Shown: piece by piece, positions 1 through 21,638 of the stretch
Layout: each line of letters starts with the position of its first letter
Position numbering within the stretch: position 1 is the first letter of the stretch
Virus record (IMG/VR): IMGVR_UViG_3300022602_000477
Span: 1 to 21,638 of that record
Reading direction: 5' to 3' (one strand)
Origin: a virus
Length of the DNA: 21,638 bases
Program-made: the position numbers and the translations under genes
Notes under the pieces: model-generated
What the model was told of the DNA's origin: nothing
Seen by the model: only the letters and a program-made list of their open reading frames with translations
Database searches by the model: none

Positions 1-3000
1 CTCCGTCTAACACTACTTCAGGAACATCTAAATAACCACTACCTGGTGTCAATAATACTATTCGAGTTACTTTACCATTATTAATGAAAGCTCTGCCGGT
101 AGCACCTGTGCCGCTTAGGCTAGTGAATACCACGTGCGGAGGAATGTTATAACCAGACCCTCCGTCGATTAATATTAATTCAGTAACAATAAATCCTACA
201 TTATCTAACCAGAATTTCCAAGGATAAGTTTGTATAGCAGTATCGCCTGCTACAAGTTTACCGTTTTGTACTGTAACCCCAATTAGTCCTACTTTATCAT
301 TTTCGTAAATAGGCATTAGGTCGAAATCAGTAATAGGTAGCTGAGCGGTATCTAAACTTTCATAATTACTTACATATTCTCTAACTTTTGTTCTATAAGG
401 TTTTACTTCCGCTACATAATCTTCAAAATTTGCTAGATTATCCACAGGATAATTTACAGGTTGGTCCAACATTCCGACATTATGCTGTGCTTTAACAAAA
501 CTAGTTTTAAATATCCAGTCTACATATACTTGTTCGCTGAATACATAACGTACACTGTTAAAAAATAAATTTAAATATTCTTGCTTTAAGTCATTAACAA
601 AAATATTATTTTTTATGGCATTTAAAATAATTTTTAATTCCGTAGCCGCTACAACATCGAAGCCTTCTCCGTCAAATATACTTGAATCATACCCAACATC
701 AGTGGCTGAGAAGTTGTATAAACTACTCTTGAATTGTATTGTACCGTTTTGAATACCAACTGTTTTATAACTCTGTGTCCAGTCTACACTATTCACATTA
801 GCATATTTTTCTAATAATAGCCATCCGCCATTATTAGACATTTTAATCCTTACAATCTGACCTATTTGAGAATTTAAAGAATTTAAATCTGTAAAAGTAT
901 TAACAGAATAGTCTTCTAGTGTATACTGGTTATAACCGCTAGCATACCAATCATCATAAGTCCAATAATTTCTCACATCGTAACTTTGTGTCAATGTTCT
1001 AGACCATTGCTTATAAACAGGATCGTAAGTATAAATGCTCCAATTATTGTTTGCTTGACTATCACTGTGAACTAATACCGCATAATTTCTAATCACACAG
1101 CGAGTATTGTTATCGTAACCATTACCTTGAGAGATAACTGTAGCACCAGTAACTTGTCCAAGTGTGTTTATTGTTGCTCTAACTACTGCGCCAGATCCTG
1201 ATCCAACGATTTCTATATAAGGTGATGTGCTTACACTATTAATCGACGGAGCATAACCTTTGCCTGAAGAATTTATGATAATTCCTGTAACTTTTCCGTT
1301 AACAATCACTGGCACTAAATTTGGCGAAGCAAAACTAGATGCGTTTGTATAAGACAACTCAGTATCTGTATCTAATGCAAGATCGTATAAACCAGTAACA
1401 ACGGTTGGTTCTTTGTCATAACTTTCTAGACTGCTTATATTCAATTCAGAAATTTGATTAGTAATCATTACTTGATTAGCATATTCAATTAATTGTTTTA
1501 ATGCCTCAAAACGATTAATAAACATACTTTGTCTTGGACGATTTTCAACTCCGTAACGAATTTTAAATGGTAGTCTTGGATCAGGAACTACTTTTCCTTG
1601 GCTATCTATTCCACATAAACTATCAAACCATTTTTGTTCAACTGTCTTAGGCAAGTTTATATTAGGATCGTTGCTGATCATCTTATACTGTGTATGAATA
1701 TTTTGATCTGTTTTGTCTATAGTCCAGTATTCTACTGAAAGAACTACATTACTAGATGAAAGATATCCTTTAGCATTTGTTAAACTAAATGTATTTGTAC
1801 CCGTTATAGCAAGATAGGTATAATTTTGTCCTCTCGGATTTGCTATTAAGTTTGCTACATCCAACGCAGACATATTTCTTCCGGTAACATAAGGAATAAC
1901 TGCTTTATTTTTAACCCAGAAATAATAAGTGTTTTTAAATGTCTTGCTAATCTTATCATAAGACTGTGTCATGCTATACACAGTATCGCCATATAAACTC
2001 TTGCCACTAATTCCTATAGCAATACCAGCATTAGTATCTGCTTGAGCATCCCACTGACTTGGTTTAAAACTAGAACTTACCCATTCGTAAATATCGATGC
2101 TAGCACCAGTAGCCAATTGATTCCAAGTTGAGTTTCTATAAACAATATCCTGATCGTAACTATTAATAAATTTGGCAGTTCTTAAATCCCACCATAGTTG
2201 TCCAACTTGCTGTTTAGACCAAATTGAGGCAGTATTAACTACAACATTACTTGTGCCAACACTATAAGTAGCAGGATCATAAAAAGTTTTATATCTGATT
2301 TCTTCTTCAGCAGGTCCCGGAATTTTTCCTTGTAAAGGATCAACCACATCTAAATATTTTAATAAACTACCGCTTGCTTTGTTATATAAAAATGCTTTTT
2401 TAATTTTCTTAACATCTGGAATAGCAACTTGGTTAGTATGTATTGCCCAGGTGTAAGTATTTGGCAATTTATAGTAGTTGTAAATAACTCCAGCATTATT
2501 AAAACTATTTTCAGTAGCATTAGGAGCGCCGGCAAAAATCTGATTTGCTCCAACGGAAAATCCTGTTCCTAAACCGTCAGTATTAGATCCTGTAGGATCA
2601 ACAGTTTCACTATACACCCATTTAGTATCATATCTATCGTAAATGTCAATGCGACCAGACGAACTAACTTGTGAAAACACAACTAATGTATTATAGTTGT
2701 TCATAAACGAAATTTTATTTCCAAATACACCTGAAACATCAGGACGCGGAGTAATATATGATGTATGAACTGTATCATATTGCCCAGTAAACAATAGAGG
2801 ATAAATTAAAATTCCACTTGTTGATACTGACAGATTGCTAATCGCAACATATTCTGCGTCATCTGAAATACTAATACTAGAAGCAAAAGAATGGGTAGAT
2901 CCCGTGATAGTCTGGCTTAAGGCAAAACCTGATCCAGAATTTTTATATATTTTTACTAGGCCATTTTGCGATCCGCCACCGGCTGCTATAGCTAGAGTTG

Positions 3001-6000
3001 AACTATCTGCGCTCACTACGATTGAACTACCAAAATTGCTGCCTGTGGTAGCACCAGTATATGTCGCGTCGTATTGCCATCCGGTTACCACAAAATTTAA
3101 TATTCCAGCCGGAGTACTATCGGGACTTCCCGATAACTCTAGTGTGGTACTATTAATAACTGCTGTTACAGTTTGGCCGCTAGTAAACCCGGTACCTTGT
3201 ACAACTAATCCTGCGGTAATACCAGTAGTACTAGTAACTACTAATGTAGCATAACTACTACCAATTGGATTATAAGCAGAACTTGCTTTAATGTTTGAAG
3301 TATAAATTAATTTATAAACACGACCAGTATTGTTATTATAACCAGTAGCACCTATATATAATTCATTTGTATTAAAAGTTAATGTCGATCCAAACTGTTC
3401 TCCAGTAACATGGCTAGAATCTAATCCTATCGAAGGACTGACGATTGAATCAGCTAATTGATAAGCATTTCCAAAAGATTTTTGATATAAACTAATTACA
3501 CCTTGATTTGTATTTGAACTATTATTGCTTACAGTACTTGTATCAACAGGAACATACGGTATTTTATTCCATGCCGATACTCCATAAGGAGCAACTATTT
3601 GATATCCATTTATAAATCCAGATATAGGAGTAGGTAATGTGATTAATAAATCGTTTATTATGTCCTGACCACCTATCTTACTTCCGTTAATTAATATTTG
3701 ATCCCCTGCTAAGTATCCTGTGCCTGTACCTGATACTATAACTTTGTAACCTGTTAGAAGAGGACTTACAGTAAATGTTGCGCCAGATCCTAGTAATACA
3801 GATCCTGCTAAACTTGTATAAGTTTGTGGAGGAGTACCTACACTTGACCAAGTTATACTTGTTATAGATGCTTGTGCCACTGTTTGTACAACAATAGTTA
3901 TATCATTAACTGTGTCAATTCCGCCTACTTGAGATCCTAGGATAACAATTTTGTTTCCTACTTTATAGCCAGCACCGCCCGAAATTACATTTACAGTATA
4001 ATTTGATCCAATTACTACAACATTAAATCTAGCACCTTGTGCTTGATTTTGTGTAACACCAGTTATACCTGTATATTGATGTAGTAGTGCTCCAGTTGTT
4101 TGATAATAGTTAACACCGTCAGTAACAATAGATTTGGCAATGTAATCTGTGCTGTTAGGAACAGAATATATTCCTTTATAATTAGTAGCTACATACCCAG
4201 ATGTAGGGCTACCAATAGCTAACCATTGTTTGTCATTACTAATTGCTATTGTAGTAGCGGCCGATGACCTAGAATTTTTGTTTATTGCTCCTACTAAAAC
4301 ACTAAAACCAGATCCTGATCCGCCGAGATAAGAAGAATTAACTGTTAACTGATCACCAACTTGGTAACCGCTGCCTCCGTAATTTAAAATTAGGCTTGTT
4401 ACTAATCCATTAGTCACTGTTAATGTAGCTGTGGCTGTGCCATCGCCGGTTCCTGAACTAACATAACTTAACGGTACATTAGGAAATACTGTTGTTCCTG
4501 TCTGATTATTATTATATCCAGAACCGCAAGTATTTGATACTTGTATTTCAACAGGAGTGTTAACAACGCCTCCTAGATATCTAGGATCTGCGGTAAGTGT
4601 TTCTCCATTAATGTATTGCGTGTCAAATCTAATTAATTTAACAGTAGTTACAGTGCCATTGAATACAGTAATATTCGCTATGGCTCCGGATCCGGATCCT
4701 CCTGATAATGGAACATTAGAATATATTTGTGTTCCAGAATTTGGTCTGTATCCTGATCCACCCGATGTTAGTGTTATAGTTAAACTCAACCCGCTTACAT
4801 TAAACGCTTCCACAGTACCTTGTACTCCAGAAGTAGTGTAATTTGTCGAGATAGAAGGCGTCTGTATTAACTGATTTCTAGTCCAGTTAGTTAATATACC
4901 TGCTTTTAAATAGATAGCAGTCTGCCCATCTGATGATGTTATTGCGGCAGCATCGCCTGTCTTGGTCATAGCTATTGCTCGACCAAAATTATGATTAGTA
5001 GTATTCACTTGATCAAGTATAGTAGATTTACTATAAACAGGATTATAAATCCAACTTGCCCAATTTGAATTTGTAGAAGATTTGATATCAGTCCATAACA
5101 ACTGTCCGGTTACTGGTGTTATCGGTAGCAACGATTCTAATTGATCTATCGAAGAATTTAATGAACGTTGTGATATAAAATAAAAAACTTCTATTGTAGA
5201 TAAATCATTGAAAGGTGCTAATACTGCTCCGACAGCCAAATTAATTGTAAAAGTATTTGTACCTACTGCTACTATAGAATAAAAACCATTTATTTTTTGT
5301 GTACCAGTGATACCAATATAATCTCCTACACTAAATGTCACCGTTGTAGGAACTGTGATTGTAACTGTATTAGGTTTTACACTAGTATTAGATGTCACAG
5401 AGTTGATAACACCGGTGGCATATTTTAATGTGTATCTATAAACATTCCAATAATATGGTGGAGGCGCAAACGCACACCAGACATAATTACCGTCTGTATA
5501 TTTTGTTGGATCATATGTTAATATATCCGACAACTGTCCTAAACTAATGCTAACATCTTTTGAATTTACATATCCTGCGCTAGCTAGTAATGGTTGATAA
5601 TTATTAAGGGCAGGCCATGGATTAGAATCATAATTGTTACTAGGCAAATATACATCGCTAGGTAAAATCTGTATTATGAATGGATTTAGATTTTTATCAA
5701 TCTTATCAACTAATGTATATCCTTGCGGATTGTTTCTCACTAATCCTTCGTCCAACGTAAATTCAATTTGCTGGAATCCGTGGGCGGCACCATATTGTCC
5801 CACTCTAATTGCCCACTCTTCGTAGAACACTAAACTTTCTTTATTTTCACTACTTAAAACATCAAATAATTTGTTAAGAACATTCTGTGTTCCTTTCTCA
5901 CGAATCATTCCTTGGTAGAATTTAAATTCGCTAACATCATCTTGAATAATATTATCTAAATATTGACGTTTCTGATAGCCAATTAAATGTTGTCCCATTG

Positions 6001-9000
6001 TCTGTTGGGCTGAATCAAAACTATCAACATCTAAACTATAAAAATCTTGGAACTGTGTAGCAATATTTGTCCAGTTAGGCAATATCTGGCTACTAGGTTT
6101 GTTTGCTAGCTCTGTCCACTGTGTAATATCAAACGTTGCGCTACCAGGTAAAAATTTATTGGCACTATAATAATATCCTTGATAGTTTATAATATCTCCA
6201 AGGTTGTAGTCTTGCCATTGTTGCCAATTTTGTATTTTTGCGGCGTCAAAAATAAATCCAGGAATATCAAGTCCGCCGTACCAATTAGTAGTAATGTAAC
6301 CAGATATTTTAATTCTTTCTTGTCTATATCCACTTTCTGGATTATAGATAGTGTCGTTGAATATTGTATTGTTATTAAGTATTACTACATGCTCGTGTTG
6401 TACAAGATAAAAACTTGCTCCGTAGATACCATCAGTGTTTCTTGGACTATAATTTACAGTATTATTTTTTCTATAACTATCCAGATCTGCTGTATTAATC
6501 GCTGTTCCGTTAACTTTGAAAATTTCATATCTGTTGAATAAATTGTTAATATCATCAACAACATTCAAAGGAGTATTAAATTCAATATTGCCGGCTGCCG
6601 GACTTAAACTTATTACGCTGGCTCCAGAAACACTCAACCCATCTAATTTAGTAAAACTATTATAATCGAAAACATTAGATGCTGGAACATTTCTAGTGGC
6701 ACTATAATACTCACCGTTATAGCGTACAATAGTACCGTATGGTACTGCGATATTTTGTGTCCAATCACTCCACTTGTCCTGTCCGCTACTCCAATTTTGT
6801 GTAGTCCAGAACATAAATTCTTTTGCGCTAGTTTCCCAGTTGCTAACTACGCCTAGATTAGTGTTGTATTGATTAAAGATAAAACCCTGATCTTTTAAAT
6901 ATTCGCCATATCCTAATAAGAAGTCTACTACATCCTGAACCTTACTAAAAGAATATCCATATGGCGCGGTATAAACTTGTGTCTTATCCCAAGATTTTCT
7001 AAAATTAGCAGTCACACCACCACTAATAGGTAATGAAGGAATAGCAATAAATTGTGTAGGATCAAATTGCGAACCGGTAGTGATAGTTGTTAATGTTTTA
7101 AAATAACCATTATTATATTTTACAATACTGCCGGCGGCATATTGTTCATTAGCAGTCCAATTTGAAAAGTTTTCTGAGATTCCGCCAACATTAATATTTG
7201 CTCCAGGTTGATTAAATGTATAATAATTAAAATAAGGTTTTGTTAAACTATATCCGCTTACTTGATAACCATCTTGTAGTTTAGTTATAATCACGCCACT
7301 ATAAGTTAATTTTCTTGTAGGGCTAGAGCTATTTAAAAATATAGAATAATCTTCTTTAGGTATAAAAACACTACCTGTACTACTAGGTGTTTTACTTTCT
7401 AGCAACAAATTAAATTGATCTTGATTTGTAAATGAGCCAACTCTATAACTTAGTTGAACTGCTATAGACGACAAATCATTAGCATATCCATCGTATGATT
7501 TTAAATTATTACTAAAAATGTAATTTAAAATAAGATTTACAACATAATTAATGATACCAGCAGTTTGTAATCTAGTTGTACTAGATGATATGCTAGGTAA
7601 CATAATATCTTGAGGTCGAATTCGTAATCCTGTATCTTTATAAATTAATTGTCCTGCTTTATTACGAACAATGCGACTTCTATCAAGTAGCACACCAAAT
7701 GTATTTGCTGGAGTTAAAAGCATACTAGCTATTAACACACTGAATGGATAATGACTGCTACGTCTCCAACTAGCTTCTACTGGAGCAACATCGCCAAATA
7801 CAAATTCAAAATCAATACTAGGCTTTACTTGTCCTAAAGCTAGAGTAGAAACTAACGGACTAACAAGATTACCATTCTCGTCAACCGGAATATGGTTTAT
7901 TAAGAATGGTTTTACATAATCAGCTCGATATATAGGGGCGACTCCTGGCGGTCTTAACATGCCGTCGGCTATGTCTTGCCACATTACTCTATTGTCGCTG
8001 GTATAAGGAGCAGGACCATATACTTGTGTCCACCAGCTAGGCTCTATACTAAGTCCTAGCATTTCCCAAGGACAGATATTTGGACGATCGGTGTTTAACA
8101 GCCAACGATATACACCTCTCCAGTATCCTGGTAAACTAGTTCCGTCAGGAGCACTATTTCTACTATAATTATAAGTAAAACTATTGTTAATATCGTAACT
8201 TAATGGTTTACTAAAATTAATGCCCACATCCTTAGCCCACAGATAAAAATTAGGAGCTAGCACTTCATTAAATTCGTCTCTAGTGTAAGCATTTTTTTTA
8301 TTGTAATTAGGTACTACACTATTAATATCAAAAATATCAGGATCGTATTCAACTTTAATATTGTTAAAAATTCTTTTTTCTAGCTCTAAAATTAAATAAT
8401 CTCTGTAATCACCATAGGCTAAAACCTGGCTGCCATCGTGACCTTGTATCATCATTTGCGGAGCAACTAAAGATGTATCAAGATAAATCTTAGGTTCATA
8501 CTTTGGATATATTCCCAATTTCGTAGGAGTCTCTGGAACAAAACAACCATCAGTAGTTTCATATTCTAATGTAGTAATCACATCTCCGTTATTCATTGAT
8601 AACGAATTATCCATTACAACAAAGCCTTGATCGTTAAAAATGTAATCTTTTCCGTAAATTAATTGATGATTATTTAAATACACTCCAACTGCTTTGTTAG
8701 ATAAAGTAGTCAATGTAAACACTGTGCTTAACGGATAAGTTTTAATTCTATAATCAACTACTATGATGTCTGTGCGTATGTTTGCTCCGTAAGGAATCAT
8801 GTCACTAAAATAGTAAGGAGCAGTTTTAGGTTTATTAGAATTTATTTTTTCTAATATGATATCAACTAATTTAACTGGGTCTCCATCAATTCCTAAATTT
8901 TCAGCAGTTGATACAAAAATGCGTTTGAAATGATTGTAATCATCTCTGCTTTGCTCGATGGCTCTTACAATATTATTAGACTCGCTAGTAATATGATACA

Positions 9001-11437
9001 TCGATAAACTCATTGGTCCACTATGCTGGACAAATCTTGTACCGTAAGCGGCTGTATTACCTAAATCTCTAAGATTGCTTGTTCCAGGAAAAGATCCAAC
9101 AAAAATTGTTTCTAAATTATCAACAATAGAATTAACATGATCCGAGACTTCTCCAAGTGTGAAATCTCCCATAGCATTGTTTAATGGATTATTTTGTAAG
9201 TTGATAGGAACTTCATAATAACCTTTCTTGTTAATTGGTTGTGAAGCAAATGCTCTGATGGTTAATACATCTGTCGTAGCAATTGAATTAGTTAAAACAA
9301 TTATTTTATATTGCTGACCATCGACAATTGACCACAAACTAGGATCTAATCGTTTTCCGTTAATGTAAATTCTAACAACTAAATCATTTAAATTTGTGAT
9401 GTCATCAAATATATCTAAATTAAAATTATTTGTTTTATTTGATTTTTCGTAAATTTTTATTGCGGCTTGAACATTAGTTACCGCAGAAGTTTGCCAGCCA
9501 TTTTCGTAAACTATATTTCCAGAATAATCTAATCTAATCAGATATCCTACATTTATATTTTGTGTTATTAGTTCGGCACTTTGTTTAAATTGAAAACTGT
9601 CTGTAGCAAGATTAAAATTAAAAACTATGTCACCAATATTGCTAACATTTTTATAACTTAAAGGAAACCCTAAGGTCTTATCTGCTAATCCTGATCCAAC
9701 TTTATATGAAAAAACTTGTGTTCCTTTAAACGTAGATCCTGGATAAGTCTCAGTATTACCATAACTTATTCCATTGTTGTCTACGATATCAAACAAAGGA
9801 GGCTGATTAGTATTTGTTTTTTGCTGTCCTTTAATCCAAGTAGTTCCGTTAAACCAATACATTAAACTTTGATTTTCGATACCTTGGTTAACTAAGACAG
9901 TTTGATTTAATTCAGGTGATGAGATTTCAACAAGATGTATTTGTTTACTTCCTGTACTAAGATGTCTTACATCAACAAATTCTACACGATACACTTTGTT
10001 TACTACTAACGGATCGGTGTCTGCTGTAAACAATATTGTTTGATTAGCGGATAATGAAATCCCGTCAATGTTGTATCCGGCAGATCCTTCAATAGTAGAA
10101 AATACATCTGTTGTAAAATTATCAACTAAATCTATATCGGCTATAGCAGAAGTTCCAAAATTAAATAATTTTAAATCTGCTGTAAATTCAATAATAGGTC
10201 TAGTAGCTCTTGCTAACTGATCTAAATTAGGAACACCGCCATTAGCAATAGCACTAGAATTAATCACATCTTGATGGAACCAACGATTGTATCTCGACCA
10301 TGGATTGTGATCTCGGCTAGCACGGTTTATAACAATATAATCTGCTATTGCGGCATAACCAGTGGCATCGCTGAAGGGTTCTTGGTCAAAAGGCGTATTA
10401 TCAAATTCAACAGTTTGTGATACAGTATAAGGACTAACAATTTCTAAAACTGACTGAGGTACTAGTCTGATAGCTGTACCTACGCCTTCTACATAATAAT
10501 TTCCAGTAGCATAAGTAGACGGAGTAACATTGCCGCCAAAATTTACTTTCATGCCGTTGGTCAGTGATGTACCATTGTTTAATTTGTAAGTTTTCTTACC
10601 TAATACATCAGAAGATACATCAATATATGTATTTTGGTCAATATCAAAAATTTCAATAACGCCGCCAAGATTAATATCGTTTTCGCTTTGATAGTAAATC
10701 ATTGTCGGAGCATCATCAGCAATAGTCCAAGTAATTGTACCTTGCTGAACTCCAAAATTATCTATACCGCTTTCTAAGTATCTATCTATTTTACCTGTTG
10801 ATCTCGATAATTTAAAACTAAAAGCATTACCTGGACTATTAATTTCAAATGTATAAGTCTGGCCACGATATAATTTTAGTACAGGATTTGGTGTAAAGCC
10901 GTTAGGTGTAAAAACATACTGGCTATCTTCGCCCACTTGAACTAAATCTACTGTATAAGTACTAACGACTTTTTGTTGTTGTCCATATATTGTTACTGCT
11001 TCGGGTCCGTAAGGCAACCAATAATAATTTTGAAAATTAACTATCTTATCCCAATCGATATGCGGATCCCAACTATAAAATTCCTCAGCATTTATTCTAG
11101 CATGATTATCAGTATTGCCACCAAACACCCCTAGCTGATTAATATAGTCAATATAGTCTTTATAAAAAGTTACATTGTTTAGACTGTCTTTAATTACAAC
11201 ACTTGGTTCTAATTGATAATTTTGTCTACTTTGATCGATAGCATTAACATAGATATCAGAGCCATTGGCTGCCTTAGCATTTTTTCTACCGATATATCCA
11301 TTGACCTTTTTTACTGTACCTGGCTGATATAACTGATCCAGTGTTGCTTGTAAAAACTTTTTATTGCTCTGACTTTGATAAAATGCCGGCAATAAATTTG
11401 AGGTAAGATTATTATTTCCAAAAGGCGTATTAGCCAT
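1..11437 (-). CDS. Giant mosaic baseplate/tail structural protein in the gp7 position, 3' end outside the window
   Basis: One open frame runs from an ATG at 11437 to the left edge without a stop, giving at least 3,812 residues. The start overlaps the gp6 stop by 8 bases (ATGGCTAA), with GGAG upstream. Its place just after gp6 is that of T4 gp7, a wedge protein of about 1,030 residues, so a virion wedge or peripheral baseplate role is inferred from position. Regions in order: an N-terminal part with YYWLPYGPE near residue 137; a cupredoxin-like segment about 172-264; a DGISLSANQ...NKVY motif about 450-480; YNRWFHQDV near 380; three W...G..V.Y.G..Y repeats between 1426 and 1779; FG-GAP-type blades between 2149 and 2992; nine GxGY units between 2230 and 3802. 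No signal peptide or membrane segment was seen. The composition, rich in N, T, S, Y and G, suits a beta-rich virion protein. That it is a structural protein is fairly certain; homology to gp7 itself is not shown. Confidence 0.85.
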   Translation of the reverse strand, partial: MANTPFGNNNLTSNLLPAFYQSQSNKKFLQATLDQLYQPGTVKKVNGYIGRKNAKAANGSDIYVNAIDQSRQNYQLEPSVVIKDSLNNVTFYKDYIDYINQLGVFGGNTDNHARINAEEFYSWDPHIDWDKIVNFQNYYWLPYGPEAVTIYGQQQKVVSTYTVDLVQVGEDSQYVFTPNGFTPNPVLKLYRGQTYTFEINSPGNAFSFKLSRSTGKIDRYLESGIDNFGVQQGTITWTIADDAPTMIYYQSENDINLGGVIEIFDIDQNTYIDVSSDVLGKKTYKLNNGTSLTNGMKVNFGGNVTPSTYATGNYYVEGVGTAIRLVPQSVLEIVSPYTVSQTVEFDNTPFDQEPFSDATGYAAIADYIVINRASRDHNPWSRYNRWFHQDVINSSAIANGGVPNLDQLARATRPIIEFTADLKLFNFGTSAIADIDLVDNFTTDVFSTIEGSAGYNIDGISLSANQTILFTADTDPLVVNKVYRVEFVDVRHLSTGSKQIHLVEISSPELNQTVLVNQGIENQSLMYWFNGTTWIKGQQKTNTNQPPLFDIVDNNGISYGNTETYPGSTFKGTQVFSYKVGSGLADKTLGFPLSYKNVSNIGDIVFNFNLATDSFQFKQSAELITQNINVGYLIRLDYSGNIVYENGWQTSAVTNVQAAIKIYEKSNKTNNFNLDIFDDITNLNDLVVRIYINGKRLDPSLWSIVDGQQYKIIVLTNSIATTDVLTIRAFASQPINKKGYYEVPINLQNNPLNNAMGDFTLGEVSDHVNSIVDNLETIFVGSFPGTSNLRDLGNTAAYGTRFVQHSGPMSLSMYHITSESNNIVRAIEQSRDDYNHFKRIFVSTAENLGIDGDPVKLVDIILEKINSNKPKTAPYYFSDMIPYGANIRTDIIVVDYRIKTYPLSTVFTLTTLSNKAVGVYLNNHQLIYGKDYIFNDQGFVVMDNSLSMNNGDVITTLEYETTDGCFVPETPTKLGIYPKYEPKIYLDTSLVAPQMMIQGHDGSQVLAYGDYRDYLILELEKRIFNNIKVEYDPDIFDINSVVPNYNKKNAYTRDEFNEVLAPNFYLWAKDVGINFSKPLSYDINNSFTYNYSRNSAPDGTSLPGYWRGVYRWLLNTDRPNICPWEMLGLSIEPSWWTQVYGPAPYTSDNRVMWQDIADGMLRPPGVAPIYRADYVKPFLINHIPVDENGNLVSPLVSTLALGQVKPSIDFEFVFGDVAPVEASWRRSSHYPFSVLIASMLLTPANTFGVLLDRSRIVRNKAGQLIYKDTGLRIRPQDIMLPSISSSTTRLQTAGIINYVVNLILNYIFSNNLKSYDGYANDLSSIAVQLSYRVGSFTNQDQFNLLLESKTPSSTGSVFIPKEDYSIFLNSSSPTRKLTYSGVIITKLQDGYQVSGYSLTKPYFNYYTFNQPGANINVGGISENFSNWTANEQYAAGSIVKYNNGYFKTLTTITTGSQFDPTQFIAIPSLPISGGVTANFRKSWDKTQVYTAPYGYSFSKVQDVVDFLLGYGEYLKDQGFIFNQYNTNLGVVSNWETSAKEFMFWTTQNWSSGQDKWSDWTQNIAVPYGTIVRYNGEYYSATRNVPASNVFDYNSFTKLDGLSVSGASVISLSPAAGNIEFNTPLNVVDDINNLFNRYEIFKVNGTAINTADLDSYRKNNTVNYSPRNTDGIYGASFYLVQHEHVVILNNNTIFNDTIYNPESGYRQERIKISGYITTNWYGGLDIPGFIFDAAKIQNWQQWQDYNLGDIINYQGYYYSANKFLPGSATFDITQWTELANKPSSQILPNWTNIATQFQDFYSLDVDSFDSAQQTMGQHLIGYQKRQYLDNIIQDDVSEFKFYQGMIREKGTQNVLNKLFDVLSSENKESLVFYEEWAIRVGQYGAAHGFQQIEFTLDEGLVRNNPQGYTLVDKIDKNLNPFIIQILPSDVYLPSNNYDSNPWPALNNYQPLLASAGYVNSKDVSISLGQLSDILTYDPTKYTDGNYVWCAFAPPPYYWNVYRYTLKYATGVINSVTSNTSVKPNTVTITVPTTVTFSVGDYIGITGTQKINGFYSIVAVGTNTFTINLAVGAVLAPFNDLSTIEVFYFISQRSLNSSIDQLESLLPITPVTGQLLWTDIKSSTNSNWASWIYNPVYSKSTILDQVNTTNHNFGRAIAMTKTGDAAAITSSDGQTAIYLKAGILTNWTRNQLIQTPSISTNYTTSGVQGTVEAFNVSGLSLTITLTSGGSGYRPNSGTQIYSNVPLSGGSGSGAIANITVFNGTVTTVKLIRFDTQYINGETLTADPRYLGGVVNTPVEIQVSNTCGSGYNNNQTGTTVFPNVPLSYVSSGTGDGTATATLTVTNGLVTSLILNYGGSGYQVGDQLTVNSSYLGGSGSGFSVLVGAINKNSRSSAATTIAISNDKQWLAIGSPTSGYVATNYKGIYSVPNSTDYIAKSIVTDGVNYYQTTGALLHQYTGITGVTQNQAQGARFNVVVIGSNYTVNVISGGAGYKVGNKIVILGSQVGGIDTVNDITIVVQTVAQASITSITWSSVGTPPQTYTSLAGSVLLGSGATFTVSPLLTGYKVIVSGTGTGYLAGDQILINGSKIGGQDIINDLLITLPTPISGFINGYQIVAPYGVSAWNKIPYVPVDTSTVSNNSSNTNQGVISLYQKSFGNAYQLADSIVSPSIGLDSSHVTGEQFGSTLTFNTNELYIGATGYNNNTGRVYKLIYTSNIKASSAYNPIGSSYATLVVTSTTGITAGLVVQGTGFTSGQTVTAVINSTTLELSGSPDSTPAGILNFVVTGWQYDATYTGATTGSNFGSSIVVSADSSTLAIAAGGGSQNGLVKIYKNSGSGFALSQTITGSTHSFASSISISDDAEYVAISNLSVSTSGILIYPLLFTGQYDTVHTSYITPRPDVSGVFGNKISFMNNYNTLVVFSQVSSSGRIDIYDRYDTKWVYSETVDPTGSNTDGLGTGFSVGANQIFAGAPNATENSFNNAGVIYNYYKLPNTYTWAIHTNQVAIPDVKKIKKAFLYNKASGSLLKYLDVVDPLQGKIPGPAEEEIRYKTFYDPATYSVGTSNVVVNTASIWSKQQVGQLWWDLRTAKFINSYDQDIVYRNSTWNQLATGASIDIYEWVSSSFKPSQWDAQADTNAGIAIGISGKSLYGDTVYSMTQSYDKISKTFKNTYYFWVKNKAVIPYVTGRNMSALDVANLIANPRGQNYTYLAITGTNTFSLTNAKGYLSSSNVVLSVEYWTIDKTDQNIHTQYKMISNDPNINLPKTVEQKWFDSLCGIDSQGKVVPDPRLPFKIRYGVENRPRQSMFINRFEALKQLIEYANQVMITNQISELNISSLESYDKEPTVVTGLYDLALDTDTELSYTNASSFASPNLVPVIVNGKVTGIIINSSGKGYAPSINSVSTSPYIEIVGSGSGAVVRATINTLGQVTGATVISQGNGYDNNTRCVIRNYAVLVHSDSQANNNWSIYTYDPVYKQWSRTLTQSYDVRNYWTYDDWYASGYNQYTLEDYSVNTFTDLNSLNSQIGQIVRIKMSNNGGWLLLEKYANVNSVDWTQSYKTVGIQNGTIQFKSSLYNFSATDVGYDSSIFDGEGFDVVAATELKIILNAIKNNIFVNDLKQEYLNLFFNSVRYVFSEQVYVDWIFKTSFVKAQHNVGMLDQPVNYPVDNLANFEDYVAEVKPYRTKVREYVSNYESLDTAQLPITDFDLMPIYENDKVGLIGVTVQNGKLVAGDTAIQTYPWKFWLDNVGFIVTELILIDGGSGYNIPPHVVFTSLSGTGATGRAFINNGKVTRIVLLTPGSGYLDVPEVVLDG
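2..190 (-). repeat. GxGY beta repeats, cluster 3 (two units at the window edge)
   Basis: GGSGYNIPPHVVF (tyrosine 3763) and GSGYLDVPEVVLDG (tyrosine 3802) form two adjacent units joined by a GTGATGRAFINNGKVTRI linker. The second unit reaches the window edge in the same reading frame, so more units may follow outside the window. Confidence 0.6.
1088..1300 (-). repeat. GxGY beta repeats, cluster 2 (two units)
   Basis: GKGYAPSI (tyrosine 3395) and GNGYDNNT (tyrosine 3441) flank a GSGSGAVVRATI strand and turn. They have the same unit design as cluster 1 but lie about 820 residues further along and outside the FG-GAP region, so the repeat family is scattered through the protein. Confidence 0.6.
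2462..4993 (-). repeat. FG-GAP-type repeats, probable interrupted seven-bladed propeller in the giant protein
   Basis: Seven units follow the FG-GAP pattern, with FG or a relative, a short strand, a turn, a strand ending near IG/AGA, then a G.(V)YK/IY strand. The anchoring F residues are near 2151 (NFGRAIAM), 2682 (EQFGSTLTF), 2802 (NFGSSIVVSADSSTLAIAAG), 2851 (SFASSISIS), 2905 (FGNKISF) and 2960 (GFSVGANQIFAGAP). A further unit without the FG lies near 2391 (TTIAISNDKQWLAIGSP). The last four are 49-55 residues apart, the usual blade size. About 240, 290 and 120 residues separate units 1-2, 2-3 and 3-4 and hold other modules. Classical Ca-binding DxDxDG loops are not evident. Confidence 0.55.
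3638..4795 (-). repeat. GxGY beta repeats, cluster 1 (five units)
   Basis: Tyrosines of five GxGY motifs lie at residues 2230 (GGSGYRPN), 2308 (CGSGYNNN), 2358 (GGSGYQVGDQL), 2491 (GGAGYKVGNKI) and 2575 (GTGYLAGDQI). Most units continue with a hydrophobic strand, then a G(S)GSG or GG(Q/I)D turn, and end in a V-rich strand. All five fall in the gaps between the first three FG-GAP blades. Such repeats recur in large structural proteins of marine T4-like phages as I know them; no specific function is established here. Confidence 0.6.
6101..7162 (-). repeat. Three carbohydrate-binding-like repeats in the giant protein
   Basis: Three units of about 43 residues share the pattern W...(Y)..G.IV.Y.G.Y(Y/F)......(F)D...(F/W). 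Unit A spans residues about 1426-1468 (NWTANEQYAAGSIVKYNNGY), unit B about 1556-1598 (PYGTIVRYNGEYYSA) and unit C about 1737-1779 (YNLGDIINYQGYYYSA). The pattern resembles the small chitin-binding or CBM5/12-type module, in which the aromatic residues line a sugar-binding face. The units are separated by roughly 90 and 140 residues of other sequence, so they are dispersed modules and not a tandem array. A glycan-binding role is inferred; they could be structural only. Confidence 0.55.
10645..10923 (-). other. Cupredoxin-like segment of the giant protein (residues about 172-264)
   Basis: The segment contains LYRGQTYTFEI, then PGNAFSF, then a GT(I)TW stretch, DDAPTMIYYQ and finally NLGGVIEI. 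The spacing resembles the end of a cupredoxin fold, where related sequences read HPF...GT...DAP..LYYQC..H..M.G.I.I. Here the usual metal ligands are replaced: C by S, H by N or D, and M by L. If the fold is right, this copy probably binds no copper and serves as a structural beta-sandwich. The assignment rests on motif memory only. Confidence 0.4.
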
Positions 11438-14400
11438 TAGATGCTCCATTTGTTGCGCTGGTTATGTTTTGTGTATTAATAACTGTTGTCAATGCATCGC
11501 CTGTTATTGTTTTCAAGTTAGCACTAGTCAATCCGGATACTATAACAACATCACTGGCCTGAGCACAACTAATAAAAATTTGATTGCTAGGACATTGTAT
11601 TTCAAACAAGCTACCAAAGTACTGTCCGGCTTGCTTTGGAACGATAACAAAACTAGTAATATCAGGATTTAATTGTGTTAATACATAGGTAGACAATTCT
11701 GTAAAATAGAATGTGTCTCCAAAATTCCAGTTATCTAAACTAAAGAATGTGTTAATAGCTGTTAACACCCGAGAAATAATGTTACTAGTACTTGCTGTAC
11801 TGCTAGCATTTTGTACTACGTTAAATGTTGCTTGTAAATTTAATTCAGCTTGAGATCCAAACAACAATTTGTAACTAACTGGATGATAGACAATTTCATC
11901 GCTAATAGATTTTACCAAGTTTAAATTAGGGCTTAGTTGACTACTCAATTGATTACTGCTTGGAGGCAATGGTTTAGTAGCGATAGCGCCGGCAATCCAT
12001 TGTCTAAATGTAGTGTCGTATGTTTTGGTTAAGACATATACATCCATAATATTACTAGCACTAGGATCAATACGACTGTCATAATCAGCACTATGTGTAT
12101 ACTGGAATTTCAAGTTATCTCGGCCGACATACACTTTATAATCTAGTGTTGGTACAAAACCTTGTCCGTTCATATACTGAGCCACATAATTTGTGTCTAC
12201 AAAATAATAATATTTTCCATCAACACCACTACCTGGTTTGGTTGATAAAATTGTAACTATTGGATTATTTGGATCGTTATACACATAACGATAATCTTCT
12301 TCGCCCTGACTAATTAAATACTTTTCTTGTACAATATAAGTTGTAGATCCATTTGGGGCAACAATATCTAAAAATAATTGAGGATTGTCAACAATTCCGC
12401 TGTTTGTAGTATCGGCAAAACTGACAACAATTTTACTTGGGTCAATATATCCGTCTTGGCCGTTGTATTCACTCACTACATCCCAGTCATAGTTTAGTGT
12501 GAATGGAGTTGTATAAGAAGGAGGTTGTGTGTTAATGCTTAAAATTTTGATGTTGTCTTTAACTATAGCAGAATTAATAACATCATAGATTTTTGTGTTA
12601 GTATCAAAATAGAATGTAACTTGTGTGTCGCTTTCAAATACATATCTCAATTCTCTTGTAGTAATTGTATAGTATTCGTTGTTAGTCGTAAACAATAAAA
12701 TCCAGCTAGAATCCTTATTGGCATTTGTAAGGTCGCCTTGATTACCTAAACTAAAAGAGTCTGTTGTGTTTAAATTTGTTTCAAATATAATTTGCCAGCT
12801 TTGTGTAGTACCATTGTAACTTAGTCCAAATGGTTTGTTAGCAAACACTAGATCAATCATAGTTGTTATAACTGAACTACTAAATGTGCGAGTAAAGCTA
12901 GGAATGATCTGACTAATAATAGCACCGTTAGGAATAGATTTGTTTAGCATTATAGCACCATATCCGCTAGACAACACTCCAGTATAAGAACTATCTACTA
13001 GTAAACCTCTACCATCTCCTGAAACAGATACAACTTCTGCCCATAAGTATGAAGATGCGCCCGACTGAGTAGTGTCTCCAGTGGTCAATATATTATTCTT
13101 GCTTGTATCAAAAAACTGTGTATTGGAGTTAGATACTGTAAACTGTATTAATGATCCCGGTGTTAGATATTGTAATGAAGTATTTGTATAACTACCTACT
13201 TGTAAGGGACTGGTATTAGAAATTGTATCAACATATCCAGTAGAATTAGTAGTAGTTGAAGTTGTTTGATTCCAAGCAACATTACTATTAGTCAAAGAAA
13301 TTACATACTGCTGATAAAAGAAATTTCTTAAATTGGGATCATTTAAAATATCATAGATCTGACCTAATATAACTCCTTGGATATCGGTTTGTGTTATGTA
13401 ACTAAATGTAGAACTAGCAATAAAAGGTTCTGTATAGATAACACCATCGTCGGCAAATAAATTTGTACTAGAATATTTGCCGGTTGGGTCTGTCAAATCA
13501 AAATAACGACTAATACCGCTACTTGTTCTGTTAAGAGCCTTAACCTTAGCAACATCTGTACTTGCACTCAATGGACTAATATTATAATCTTCGCCTGTAA
13601 TCATACGATTCTGCGTATAATATGTTTGCGGAGCATTTGTTTTTACATTAGCATTTGTTTCGCTAATAGCAGAATTTGATACGGTAGTTTGTAATGATAA
13701 ACTAATAGTTAAAATTTCGTTTGTACCAGATGCGCTGGTATAAGGGATATCTATATTAACGTTTCTAATATCTGCCGGAGTTACTGTATAACTTAAATTG
13801 TTGCTAACTCTGTAGTATGTTCTAAACTCACCTAGCGGCAAATCTCCAAATATGCCGTCGCTGAATTGTAAACTTACGGCATCGGTCGCTCGTGTAATGA
13901 CACTATAAATGGTTTTAATCTTACTGTTTAAACTGTTATAGATAATGTTGTTACCTGTAGTGGAAGGAACCTGTGTCCATAAAGTAGACTCAAGACCATT
14001 AGTATCTAATTGATACAACCAAAGATCGGTATTATTAATATTTTGTGTAGCAATATCAATCTGTTGATTACTACTCGGCTGTGTTATTGTAAAATTACCT
14101 ACTCCTAGTGATCCTTGAGTAAAGTTAAAAAAGAATCCTGTTCCGGCACTACCGGCACCATATCCGTCATCTTTGTAAACACAAGCTATGCTATTGGCAA
14201 TTTTGGGAGGTTCTTCATAGATATATGGTTGGTTAGCAAATGTTGTACTAGTAATTTCAAAATTCATATTTCGACCGGCAACAGGTTTATTAAAACTGTA
14301 AACAGGCACATCTGAATTTGTAGCATTGAATCTATACTGGGCTGTCGGAACTCCGTAGATAGTAGCATGGTCCGACGGATTGCCGTATTGTTGTGTCTGA

Positions 14401-14932: not shown

Positions 14933-14945
14933 GTGCGTAGTTTAT
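14933..14945 (-). promoter_or_regulatory. Shared 13-base element ATAAACTACGCAC, copy 1 (upstream of gp6)
   Basis: The minus strand reads ATAAACTACGCAC, beginning inside the gp25 stop codon and ending 38 bases before the gp6 ATG. An exact copy lies upstream of gp48, 41 bases before its ATG. The left half resembles the T4 late promoter box (TATAAATA). A promoter or transcript-start signal is the favoured reading. Confidence 0.5.
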
Positions 14946-15373
14946 TGGCTTGCCAATAGTCCGGCAGCTTGATCAAACTTTAATTGTAGATTTTGCTGTA
15001 TGTTATAAGGCAAATATGTCAATTTACATTCAATTTGTATACCTTGATCATATGGAGTTATAAGTATATTGCTGGCTTGAACACGTGGATCATAGTTCAA
15101 TATTTCATTTACATTTTGAAGTATTAAATCCTGTACCTCGGGTGTAAGAGGTTCAAATAATACTGTCCATATGATACTGCCAAACGCAGGCTGCATCAAA
15201 CGTTCGCCTTGACGTACATAAAAATGATTCAAAATATCTTGTTTGATTAATTCAAAATCATACAAGGCAAAATTCTGATTATCTTTATTAACTGTGCTAA
15301 ATCCTCTGTACATTTGCGGTGTAGGAGGATTAGCCTGTGCTGAAGTAATGGTTAATTTATTGTGTATGGTCAT
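14942..15373 (-). CDS. 25: Baseplate wedge protein gp25
   Basis: The product has 143 residues, close to the 132 of T4 gp25. The family core is clear: GERLMQPAFGS at about 56-66, LFEPL at about 72-76, a helix ending NEILNYDPRV at about 89-98, and a final strand pair. Gp25 is the small conserved wedge protein, related to the TssE sheath initiator of type VI secretion; it binds the gp6 core bundle and nucleates the contractile sheath. The ATG overlaps the spike gene stop as ATGA, with AGGAGA 5 bases upstream, so translation is probably coupled. The stop is followed by the 47-base gap before gp6. Identification is secure. Confidence 0.94.
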   Translation of the reverse strand: MTIHNKLTITSAQANPPTPQMYRGFSTVNKDNQNFALYDFELIKQDILNHFYVRQGERLMQPAFGSIIWTVLFEPLTPEVQDLILQNVNEILNYDPRVQASNILITPYDQGIQIECKLTYLPYNIQQNLQLKFDQAAGLLASQ

Positions 15374-17028: not shown

Positions 17029-19442
17029 TAGGTTCCTTCTCCCCAACCATCGTTAGGTATATTTTTTGCGCCTTCTTCTGGCGATAGTTGAACAGAAACA
17101 TTTCCTATCGCATCTTTAATTATTTTAGATCCGTCTGCCAATAGCTGTGTACTGGATCCATCTAAGAATTTTGTTATAGCGGCTTCGGCCGCTTTAATTG
17201 GAGAAGATTCGGTTGGTTTTATTTCTGGCATAGATGATTCATACATAGGTCTTCGATTACCCACTAATGTCTGTGTAAAATCTCCGCCTTTGAAAGTGCT
17301 TGTAACATTTGTAACTCTGTATAACCCACTAAATTGCATAACTGGAACACTTTGACTCTTAGATCCAAAATCATATAATCCGGTAGTTTGATTTATATCT
17401 ATAGGAGTTCTAAAATTAACCATAACATCGACTTCGCCATTCTGATAGCTAACACTTCCGTCTAGATTTAAATTATAATATTTTGTAGGCTGCGCCGTGT
17501 AATTTCCCATGCCGCTTTGTGCTATCCAATAAGGATCACCTAAAATTTCTAAAGTAAGATCAGTCATGTCGGCACCGTGTGTAAGAGAATCGTGAAAAGC
17601 TCTAGCGGCTCGAATGTCTCTTGTTTCGACACCCCCGCCACCTAGTTTATCTGTACCGGCAAGCGTCTTAACGAATCTTACGATAGTATTACCAACACCC
17701 GGTGAACCGTCTGGTAGTTTTCCTGTGCCTGCTTGTTGAATAGCCGGATCTGGTTTACGATCGTCTGCTTGTCCAGTATCTTGAGCCTGTTTACTATCTT
17801 GACTTAGATTACCGCCATCTGGAGGAAGTGCTTTGAAGAAATTACTTTCATAGTGAATTTTAAAACTTTTTACACTGACATTTTTTCCAGTAAAGATATA
17901 ATCGTACTGCTTTATTGCTTGAAGTTTTAATCCTTCATAAGGAGGTTTTGTATTGACTGGTAAAGTTCCTGAACTAATATGTGCGCTATAGTCTATTACT
18001 CTATAAACTAATAATCTAGGTTTCATTCCGGTAACTTTACTAGTTGGTCCTGTGTAATATACTTGAGGATCTACTCTAAACCAACCTCTATAACCTTCTG
18101 TAGTAATATTAGCCGAATCAAATGCCGACACAACAAAATTACTGTTGAGCACAACTTGATTTATAGCATTAATAATATCAGTATCTTGTCTAAATTTAAA
18201 ATCACTTTCGTTTGGATTAACTGGATTTTGTGATCTGTCATTAATTTTTGTATCTGGATTGTAAACAACGTTGTCTTTGCCTACAGGAGTAGATCCTCTG
18301 CGTTTTTCATCAAAGCCCATCCGACTATTTCCAATAGTATTTACTGTAGCCGCGTCTTGTATTAATTGTCCGCTAGTTGTATCTCTTCCTAACCCTAGTT
18401 TTTTATAAAGTTGTGTAGCTAACACATCGCTAGAATCTACTGTAGCTTCTATAGCTGTTTCAATTTCTGAAATTGTTTGAGAATTAATTCCTGAAGAACT
18501 GATGTCTTTAGGAAATATAATTACTATCTCATCAGCTTTTTCTATTCCATTGGCACGTTGAATATCTTTCAACTTAGTGTTCAACGAAACTTGTAGACTT
18601 TTTGATCCGCTTTGGAGCATTTCTCTGACACTTGTACCTTTGGCGGCCATATCGCTTTTAAATTTTGAATGAACATCTGCTAACGCTTCTTGATTAACCG
18701 GAACTCCCTTTACTTTGTAGACCGCGCCTTGCTGATCTACTGTCATATCTATATCTGAAATTTTAAAAGGAATATATCTGTTAGTGCTAGGAATACTGAG
18801 TATGTGTCCTGTCTCAGTATTACCTCTAAATTCTATTGCCATGATAAATGGCGTACATGATCTCCAACTAACAGGTTTGCCGTCTTTAGATAAGGAATTA
18901 GCCAGATGCTGGATCGCTAGCAATAACATTCCCATACTGTAAGGTTCATAAACTGTAAATTCAATGTCAGTTACGTTAGTATTATGCCCAGCTTCATATC
19001 CTATTTGTTGCTGTAGTACAATATTGTCTACGTAAAAATCAAATTGTCCGTATGGAGTGTTTGCTCTGTTGTTAGGATCAGCATTACCGCTCTTAAATAA
19101 CAAAGGAAATTTTTGTCCTGCTCGATAAGTAGTATCTGGGTTGTGATAAAAATCGTCTGGTAATATACCTACACTGATATTATAAGTGTAACTAGCATAA
19201 TCAAATAAAGGATTAGGTAATGGTAATGGAATGTTTGCTGTTGGAGCGACTACTCGCGAAACTGTATTAAGGATTCCGCCAATACCATCTGTTATAGCAG
19301 TTAGGCCGCTGGCAAGTCCTCCAGTTATAGCACTAATAGATGGCAGGCCACCAGCGATAGTATTTTCAACTTTTGTAATTGCTGAACCTATACTATTTTC
19401 TACATTAGATACTATTGCTCCTGCGTCATCAAACAAACCCAT
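17028..19442 (-). CDS. Baseplate hub protein, probable gp27 counterpart
   Basis: The product has 804 residues. It sits between gp53 and the spike gene, where a gp27-like adaptor would be expected. Residues 1-65 are hydrophobic and glycine-rich (GGLASGLTAITDGIGGIL). A conserved-looking block follows from 77 (NPLFDYASYTYNISVGILP), then DFYVDN and a YEPYSMGMLLLAIQ helix near 165-180. The C-terminal part has LEILGDPYWIAQSGMGNY (about 630-648) and FSGLYRVTNVTSTFKGGDF (about 704-722), a strand pattern seen at the end of gpD/gp27-type hub proteins. In T4, gp27 trimers join the gp5 spike to gp48/gp54 and the tube; gp27 has about 390 residues, so this protein is twice as long. A charged, low-complexity stretch (545-590) looks like a linker. 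ATG at 19442 has AGGA 7 bases upstream. The gene lies 1 base after gp53 and overlaps the spike gene by one base. Confidence 0.7.
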   Translation of the reverse strand: MGLFDDAGAIVSNVENSIGSAITKVENTIAGGLPSISAITGGLASGLTAITDGIGGILNTVSRVVAPTANIPLPLPNPLFDYASYTYNISVGILPDDFYHNPDTTYRAGQKFPLLFKSGNADPNNRANTPYGQFDFYVDNIVLQQQIGYEAGHNTNVTDIEFTVYEPYSMGMLLLAIQHLANSLSKDGKPVSWRSCTPFIMAIEFRGNTETGHILSIPSTNRYIPFKISDIDMTVDQQGAVYKVKGVPVNQEALADVHSKFKSDMAAKGTSVREMLQSGSKSLQVSLNTKLKDIQRANGIEKADEIVIIFPKDISSSGINSQTISEIETAIEATVDSSDVLATQLYKKLGLGRDTTSGQLIQDAATVNTIGNSRMGFDEKRRGSTPVGKDNVVYNPDTKINDRSQNPVNPNESDFKFRQDTDIINAINQVVLNSNFVVSAFDSANITTEGYRGWFRVDPQVYYTGPTSKVTGMKPRLLVYRVIDYSAHISSGTLPVNTKPPYEGLKLQAIKQYDYIFTGKNVSVKSFKIHYESNFFKALPPDGGNLSQDSKQAQDTGQADDRKPDPAIQQAGTGKLPDGSPGVGNTIVRFVKTLAGTDKLGGGGVETRDIRAARAFHDSLTHGADMTDLTLEILGDPYWIAQSGMGNYTAQPTKYYNLNLDGSVSYQNGEVDVMVNFRTPIDINQTTGLYDFGSKSQSVPVMQFSGLYRVTNVTSTFKGGDFTQTLVGNRRPMYESSMPEIKPTESSPIKAAEAAITKFLDGSSTQLLADGSKIIKDAIGNVSVQLSPEEGAKNIPNDGWGEGT
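17033..17040 (-). promoter_or_regulatory. Ribosome binding site fixing the gp5-type start
   Basis: The minus strand reads AGAAGGAA and then CCTA before the ATG at 17028. This strong Shine-Dalgarno site sits inside the last codons of the hub gene. It supports the TAATG-coupled ATG over the upstream in-frame TTG at 17046, which would place the binding site inside the coding region. Confidence 0.75.
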
Positions 19443-19443
19443 C

Positions 19444-19746
19444 TTATAATCCTAATACTGATTTTAATTTACTATTTTTTGGAATGTAAATTTGAACACC
19501 TGGCACAAAGTCTAGGATAGGATCTTGTATAACATCCATATTGCGTTGAGTAAATACCCACCATAGATTAACATCACCGTATAGGTCAAAGGCCAACAAG
19601 TCTGGACGATATGTATACTGAGGTTGTATAGTATACAAGAAGTCATCGTTCTCGGCAGGAACTGGTCTTATTTTAAAAGTATCTAAATAATTTTGTCTAG
19701 TCTGGGTAACATACCAAGGACTAGTAGATTTGTAAACGGCTGCCAT
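19444..19746 (-). CDS. 53: Baseplate wedge protein gp53 (LysM-like)
   Basis: The product has 100 residues, about half of T4 gp53 (196), which suits the short form with the core fold only. The family motif is plain: YRPDLLAFDLYGDVNLWWVF at 46-65, then QRNMDVIQDPILDFVPGVQIYIP at 67-89. This is a LysM-like fold that in wedges binds gp6 and gp25 and helps hold the wedge to the hub. The ATG is 2 bases after the gp48 stop, and the stop is 1 base before the hub ATG. No strong Shine-Dalgarno site is visible (GGAT about 12 bases upstream), so translation probably relies on coupling to gp48. Confidence 0.92.
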   Translation of the reverse strand: MAAVYKSTSPWYVTQTRQNYLDTFKIRPVPAENDDFLYTIQPQYTYRPDLLAFDLYGDVNLWWVFTQRNMDVIQDPILDFVPGVQIYIPKNSKLKSVLGL

Positions 19747-20833: not shown

Positions 20834-21638
20834 ATGACAGCAAAAGTAAATTACTTAAACAACAAAGACATGTTAGCGGAAATACACAAATCCAAAAGCA
20901 GTTATTGTGTGTTTACGCAACCAGAATATCACCAATATGACATTATACTACCTAGCGTAGACAAAATAAACATCCGCAGTATAGCCGAAGCCAAGCGAAA
21001 CAGGGCTAAAAGACAAGGTGATCAAGAATATGCCAGACGCAAGGCCCTTGGCGAAAAAGTCAAACAAGCAGACTGTGAAGTCGATTATAAAAAAATTGCT
21101 AAAACTGATGTGGTATTTAGAATTATGACATTTGATCATATTCCGTTAAATACCGTTCGGAAAAAGAATCCTAAAAGCCTTGCTGACCATAGAGACAAAG
21201 TAAACTTTCCACCATTCCAACATTGGAAATTCAACGACCAAGATGAGCTTGTTTGTGTAGGAAAAAGTCACTGGAAGGGTGATTTGATTAAAGGCAAGTT
21301 CGATAAAGATGCGGGCCAAATAACTAACACCTTAGCCCGTATGATGTTAAAATTGTGTGAGAGATACGCTACTCGCGGCAACGTGCGTGGCTATACTTAT
21401 AACGATGAAATGAAAGGTCAGGCTATACTACAGTTAACACAGATTGGATTACAATTTGACGAAAGCAAATCGGACAATCCATTTGCTTATTTTACTGCGG
21501 CTGTGACCAATAGTTTTGTTCGTGTTATTAATATTGAAAAACGCAATCAAAACATACGTGATGATATCTTAGAAATTAACGGTATGAATCCAAGTTATAG
21601 CCGTACTGGTGCCGGCGAACATGCGGCGGCCATGAAAA
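20834..21638 (+). CDS. 55: Late-transcription RNA polymerase sigma factor gp55, 3' end outside the window
   Basis: At least 268 residues are encoded; the frame is open at the right edge. Residues about 143-245 are the gp55 core: SHWKGDL, then RYATRGNVRGYTYNDEM (179-193), QIGLQFDESKSDNPFAYFTA (203-222) and NIEKRNQNIRDD (233-244), corresponding to sigma region 2, which binds polymerase and the -10 element. Gp55 recognises TATAAATA-type late promoters in concert with the gp45 clamp and gp33. T4 gp55 has 185 residues in all; here about 140 residues precede the core, with a basic stretch EAKRNRAKRQGDQEYARRK (52-70) and a block FRIMTFDHIPLNTVRKKNP (95-113). The clamp-binding C-terminal tail would lie outside the window. 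It faces away from the late operon and has its own sigma70-type promoter. Confidence 0.92.
   Translation, partial: MTAKVNYLNNKDMLAEIHKSKSSYCVFTQPEYHQYDIILPSVDKINIRSIAEAKRNRAKRQGDQEYARRKALGEKVKQADCEVDYKKIAKTDVVFRIMTFDHIPLNTVRKKNPKSLADHRDKVNFPPFQHWKFNDQDELVCVGKSHWKGDLIKGKFDKDAGQITNTLARMMLKLCERYATRGNVRGYTYNDEMKGQAILQLTQIGLQFDESKSDNPFAYFTAAVTNSFVRVINIEKRNQNIRDDILEINGMNPSYSRTGAGEHAAAMK

Follow-up and report, generated by a model that had tools for sequence, protein, structure and literature searches.

A giant gene next to gp6 in an environmental jumbo myophage probably encodes a gp7-equivalent wedge protein

Introduction

The window analyzed here is a whole IMG/VR record of 21,638 bases and is apparently a fragment. 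Its left half is taken up by one minus-strand reading frame that starts next to a gp6-like baseplate gene and runs off the left edge. Its position raises the question of whether this giant is the gp7 of its phage, a gp7-unrelated baseplate or fibre protein, or a fusion of several T4 baseplate genes. An earlier note on this DNA, made from the letters alone, had placed it in the gp7 slot. We compared the giant and its neighbours with profile collections, structure models and related phages. The features are listed in Table 1.

Table 1. Features of the window and of the giant protein (residue numbers are those of the giant protein).
Feature	Position	Strand	Evidence
Giant virion gene, 5' part	2..11449	-	3,816 codons, open at left edge; probable start ATG 11437; ~5,180 aa expected in full
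Candidate first half of gp7-like core, residues 14-46, NLTSNLLPAFYQSQSNKKFLQATLDQLYQ	11312..11410	-	in register with cyanophage gp7 residues ~10-40
Cupredoxin-like beta-sandwich, residues ~176-270	10640..10924	-	AlphaFold pLDDT ~90; Foldseek rusticyanin TMt 0.45
CBM5/12-like module 1, residues 1430-1460	7070..7162	-	PF02839 E=3e-5, 24.3 bits; cut-off 26.2
CBM5/12-like module 2, residues 1741-1767	6149..6229	-	PF02839 E=0.012, below cut-off
Candidate second half of gp7-like core, residues ~1818-1890, FY.G.I..KGT motif, KGT at residue 1852	5780..5998	-	profile-window scan
Variable insert-rich region, residues ~2000-3000, FG-GAP-like repeats	2450..5452	-	low identity and gaps in relatives compared with flanking scaffold
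GxGY-type beta module, residues 3378-3451	1097..1318	-	phrog_2885 'baseplate wedge subunit' E=3e-13
Second GxGY-type beta module, residues 3754-3814	8..190	-	phrog_701/708/460 matches; RS29 E=2e-11
gp6-like baseplate wedge protein, 1,154 aa	11430..14894	-	phrog_10646 E=7e-295; phrog_219 E=2e-16
gp25-like wedge / sheath initiator	14942..15373	-	PF04965 31.9 bits, above cut-off
gp5-like hub spike, 558 aa	15370..17046	-	phrog_13211 E=3e-54; Gp5_trimer_C and Phage_base_V below cut-off
Virion structural protein, 804 aa	17028..19442	-	phrog_11190 E=4e-26
gp53-like wedge protein	19444..19746	-	phrog_7145 E=9e-24; PF11246 21.4 bits, above cut-off
Virion structural protein, 334 aa	19749..20753	-	phrog_12050 E=1e-41
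gp55-like late sigma factor, divergent, open at right edge	20834..21637	+	phrog_12791 E=1e-72

Results

The giant reading frame

ORF analysis of the window found 3,816 codons without a stop from the ATG at 11449 to base 2. The ATG at 11437 in the same frame gives 3,812 codons and is the more likely start, because a GGAG ribosome site lies eight bases upstream of it. This confirmed the stop-free frame that the earlier note had read from 11437 to the left edge. The other five frames contain 233-487 stops across the same stretch. At the window's composition the probability of a stop is 0.067 per codon, and the probability of 3,816 open codons by chance is correspondingly small (ln P = -264).

Relatives of the giant gene were taken from IMG/VR. 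The closest complete ones, L085 and L086, are 83-87% identical and have ~5,180 residues, and about 60 complete relatives carry the gene as one intact ORF of 4,416-5,658 aa. Compared with L086, the substitution rates per site were 0.13, 0.08 and 0.40 at the first, second and third codon position, so the coding frame is conserved and under purifying selection. A sequencing error that hides stops, which the earlier note had raised against its own reading, is excluded by the complete relatives; these and the L086 codon-position rates also rule out a chain break or an artefact ORF. The left edge of the window corresponds to residue 3,827 of the 5,189-residue L086 ORF, so ~1,360 C-terminal residues of the giant are missing from the record. 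In another relative (L007, 83% identical) a break at residue ~2,985, around position 18955, interrupts the giant ORF, which resumes in another frame; this is a probable sequencing or assembly frameshift.

The giant belongs to a known family of virion proteins

The giant protein matches PHROG 10938 ('virion structural protein') along most of its length, in 5 stretches with E=0 and 1,076 bits. Homologues in this group are RaK2 ORF070w (3,326 aa), CBB_236 (3,340 aa), PA5oct gp355 (3,857 aa), SCTP-2 gp140 (3,807 aa) and Atu_ph07 gp180 (4,449 aa), and all five hold the same place in their genomes. In UniProt, a 64%-identical protein of an uncultured phage carries the name 'YHYH domain-containing protein'. 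The observation of a giant gene is therefore correct, and the gene itself is not new: such giants are on record in RaK2-like jumbo phages and ocean cyanophages.

The homologues also support the claim that the giant is a virion protein. CBB_236 was found with 21 unique peptides (7.7% coverage) in purified CBB virions by mass spectrometry (PMC5259590), and PA5oct gp355 is annotated ESI-MS/MS, i.e. identified by mass spectrometry.

Alignment with these distant homologues revealed a conserved scaffold at residues ~1-2000 and ~3000-4000, mostly with 20-48% identity per block. In contrast, the insert-rich stretch 2000-3000 is not conserved, and the RaK2-like, PA5oct and Atu_ph07 isolate proteins are shorter (3,326-4,449 aa) than the ~5,180 aa expected here.

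The giant gene adjoins gp6 in a baseplate operon

Upstream of the giant, the genes are transcribed in the order virion protein, gp53, virion protein, gp5, gp25 and gp6, with gp55 divergent. This order is identical to that of Pectobacterium phage CBB, save one extra gene in CBB, and near-identical in RaK2 and PA5oct. The giant gene adjoins gp6 in this gp53-gp5-gp25-gp6 operon, opposite gp55, as do members of the PHROG 10938 group, and it directly follows gp6 as members of the T4 gp7 family do. With gp6, gp25, gp5, gp53 and the divergent gp55 ordered as in CBB and RaK2, the assignment to the gp7 slot holds.

The gp6-like protein of the window is enlarged (1,154 aa) compared with 660 aa in T4, and that of PA5oct has 1,319 aa. 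In the gp5-like hub protein Pfam found no lysozyme domain and gave hints of OB and trimerisation domains, whereas RaK2 ORF078 and CBB gp240 have a lysozyme domain. In Salicola phage SCTP-2, the place expected for gp6, directly upstream of the giant homologue, is taken by a protein of 3,096 aa (L173:29272-38562) that combines WD40 propellers with a vWA domain.

The genes beyond the left edge were examined in relatives. In most of them the giant is followed by a conserved 202-residue gene (phrog_11259), then by a fibre gene with a collar domain and more fibre genes, some of which carry an N-terminal domain of the T4 gp9/gp10 type. Three related contigs (G001, G003 and G006, of L032, L038 and L118) have ORFs of 3,269-3,936 aa that match this N-terminal domain; judged from sequence, these are probably further giant fibre proteins.

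These downstream genes bear on the suggestion that the giant replaces several T4 genes, gp7 to gp12. In favour of such a fusion, gp8 (PF09215), which follows gp7 in T4 and does not follow the giant in its relatives, was detected in T4 and in none of 12 related records (8 contigs and the genomes of 4 isolates). However, the collar-domain and T4_gp9_10_N fibre genes are separate and lie directly downstream, PA5oct gp358 has Gp10_C at 85 bits, and no T4 gp8-gp12 family occurs among the 40 best hmmsearch rows of the giant (all E up to 0.005). The fusion is rejected for gp9, gp10 and gp12 by the separate genes and the missing match, and as a whole it is very improbable. Of the gp8-gp12 homologues that the earlier note proposed to look for elsewhere, the relatives show collar-type and gp9/gp10-type fibre genes and not gp8, which alone may have been lost or have diverged extremely.

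Modules of the giant protein

Mean AlphaFold pLDDT was 76 for a model of residues 1-1150 and 66 for a model of residues 1150-2060. With Foldseek, the two models matched mainly cupredoxin and CBM5/12 modules in PDB, and mainly their own family and cyanophage tail proteins in BFVD.

The cupredoxin-like module is also present in a cyanophage tail-fibre-like protein (P-SSM2_028, E=9e-23; phrog_677, E=1e-13). The usual copper ligands are not evident in it by eye. The model of residues 1150-2060, which holds both CBM5/12-like modules, matches solved CBM5/12 domains with TMt of 0.6-0.7, and L086 has a PF02839 match near its C-terminus at 29.6 bits, above the gathering score of 26.2. Contact of the CBM-like modules with glycans is possible and putative. 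The same model also matches chains in baseplate or fibre structures solved for Milano and 7-7-1, and for this reason the modules may instead be structural glue.

By eye, the FG-GAP-like repeats at residues 2150-3000 possibly form a beta-propeller; Pfam gave no propeller match in residues ~2000-3000. The GxGY module at residues 3378-3451 is common to the giants in the cyanophage gp7 slot (RS29 and SCSM2R, E=3e-13 to 4e-13). Past the window's left edge, the giant family has another module in common with cyanophage gp7 (Prob 96.7%). The binding-type and beta modules that had been noticed in the middle and C-terminal parts are thus recovered as CBM5/12-like, GxGY-type and other beta modules.

Some PHROG labels would make the giant a tail whisker, collar or head protein ('head and packaging', 'head closure Hc2'). 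But the Hc2 match covers the GxGY module only, which also matches baseplate wedge families, and the adjoining genes are baseplate genes. We rejected both labels as module matches or loose labels, and a whisker, collar or head protein is hardly to be expected at this locus. At positions 2-2392 of the window, PHROG 460 ('head closure Hc2') matches through this generic module alone, and such matches can mislabel baseplate genes.

Comparison with T4 gp7

T4 gp7, the baseplate wedge initiator, has 1,032 aa and is five times shorter than the giant. The two share the slot after gp6 and a short KGT-like motif. Pfam, PHROG and hhalign, the last run on 600-residue and on 60-290-residue pieces, gave no significant match of the giant to the T4 gp7 family, nor did a comparison with PDB sequences. 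None of the three Pfam domains of T4 gp7 (Gp7_helical, Gp7_5th and Gp7_6th) matches the giant, and solved gp7 is absent from the 50 best Foldseek matches of the AlphaFold models in PDB. When the T4 gp7 family profile was used alone, hhalign gave a Prob of at most 1.2%, and the window with the KGT motif ranked 6 of 339. Direct homology to T4 gp7 was therefore rejected.

This result favours a reading in which the giant has no relation to gp7 and is a peripheral baseplate or fibre protein that follows gp6 by chance. The true gp7 would then be another gene, for example the conserved 202-residue gene that comes next after the giant in most relatives examined. The modules of the giant, mostly of fibre type, would suit this reading as well. 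The cyanophage proteins speak against it.

Cyanophage proteins in the gp7 slot provide a bridge

T4 gp7 was described as absent in pelagi- and cyanomyophages, with VrlC as its apparent substitute (PMC7029224). The cyanophage proteins encoded directly after gp6 have 3,007-6,280 aa, and some of them are annotated 'gp7 baseplate wedge initiator' or 'baseplate wedge subunit'; the annotation in S-SSM7 reads 'gp7: baseplate wedge initiator'. Their gp7 core falls into an N-terminal half with 'LP.F...F' and a second half with 'FY..KGT'. The KGT half matches T4-type gp7 at 57-62% over 29-30 residues.

The giant has a KGT segment of its own, 'FYQGMIREKGT..LF'. We scanned every 110-residue window of the giant family against the profile of the cyanophage second half. 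The best 6 of 339 sliding windows all cover the KGT segment (L086 residue 1857). They score 22-24 versus 16 for the next region, in a match of only ~22 columns with a Prob of 14-22%. The scan was run after the motif had been spotted by eye, and the ranking across all windows limits this bias. For the N-terminal half, the helix with LP..Y..F ranked 5 of 341 windows (Prob 8%). Among all distant homologues examined, the KGT motif is kept in PA5oct, Atu_ph07 and SCTP-2, and it appears as KGS in RaK2.

Taken from sequence, gp7-core homology of the KGT and N-terminal segments is suggestive. It lends some weight to the wedge attachment that the earlier note had assigned to the N-terminal part, but the two halves lie at residues ~14-46 and ~1818-1890 and do not form a single N-terminal block. 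The helices around KGT have a pLDDT of about 30-40 in the monomer model, which would fit a hetero-oligomeric bundle.

The giants of Kyanoviridae (S-SSM7 gp7, S-RS29, S-SCSM1, S-PM2p084 and ACG-2014f) resemble the giant described here in their place directly after gp6, the KGT core motif, and the GxGY and 'DEIIxY' modules common to both groups. They differ in that their core halves lie within about 200 residues of each other in most cases, versus ~1,770 apart here, and there is no overall homology. In S-RS29 the halves are separated by several hundred inserted residues. The gp7 slot of this Synechococcus phage is filled by a gene of 18.8 kb (L186:11931-28078), which encodes about 6,280 aa, is annotated 'baseplate wedge subunit' and carries beta modules in the insert between the core halves.

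Of 339 windows, the KGT segment is the top-ranked one and lies in register, cyanophages have a gp7-type core in a giant protein at the same slot, and both scaffold and motif are conserved from RaK2 to Atu_ph07. Against this evidence, a giant unrelated to gp7 is unlikely.

Discussion

We favour the reading that the giant is the gp7-equivalent wedge protein of a T4-related environmental jumbo myophage of the RaK2/PA5oct/Atu_ph07 type, with a probability of about 0.68. The core pieces at residues ~14-46 and ~1818-1890 would pair with a gp6 dimer, like gp7 in the T4 (gp6)2-gp7 wedge and the gp7 counterpart in XM1, and so paired would hold the baseplate arm. A large arm, in which beta modules and CBM5/12-like modules are combined with a possible propeller, would be formed by the ~1,770 residues between the halves together with the ~3,300 after them. 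This arm would stiffen the periphery of the baseplate and carry the fibres encoded just downstream, and it may touch surface glycans.

A model for such an arrangement is Vibrio phage XM1. Its gp7 ortholog, gp17 (242 aa), joins two gp16 (gp6) chains in a core bundle, and the tail spikes are held by the loop between the core halves and by the C-terminus of gp17 (PMC10457771). These two spike-binding places would be the ones expanded in the giant; gp17 is a minimal protein and is likened to the giant in its way of working. By this analogy, the most likely role of the giant would be that of a wedge protein whose outgrowths form a baseplate arm and hold the fibres of the neighbouring genes. A stronger version, in which the split core and the ~3,300 residues that follow it let one chain of ~560 kDa build the whole arm and also take over the structural role of gp8, is doubtful.

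The size of the giant is not unprecedented. There are PHROG profiles of 4,179 and 6,136 positions, and the S-RS29 protein in the same slot is larger. A literature search for a size record found nothing.

In RaK2-like jumbo phages, the missing gp7 is probably the large protein that is labelled 'virion structural protein' and bears no functional name. Two distinct T4-related groups have giant proteins in the gp7 slot, and the inserts of these proteins lie at the sites by which XM1's small gp7 ortholog holds its spikes. The link to gp7 gives a concrete place to look in the baseplate map of a jumbo phage.
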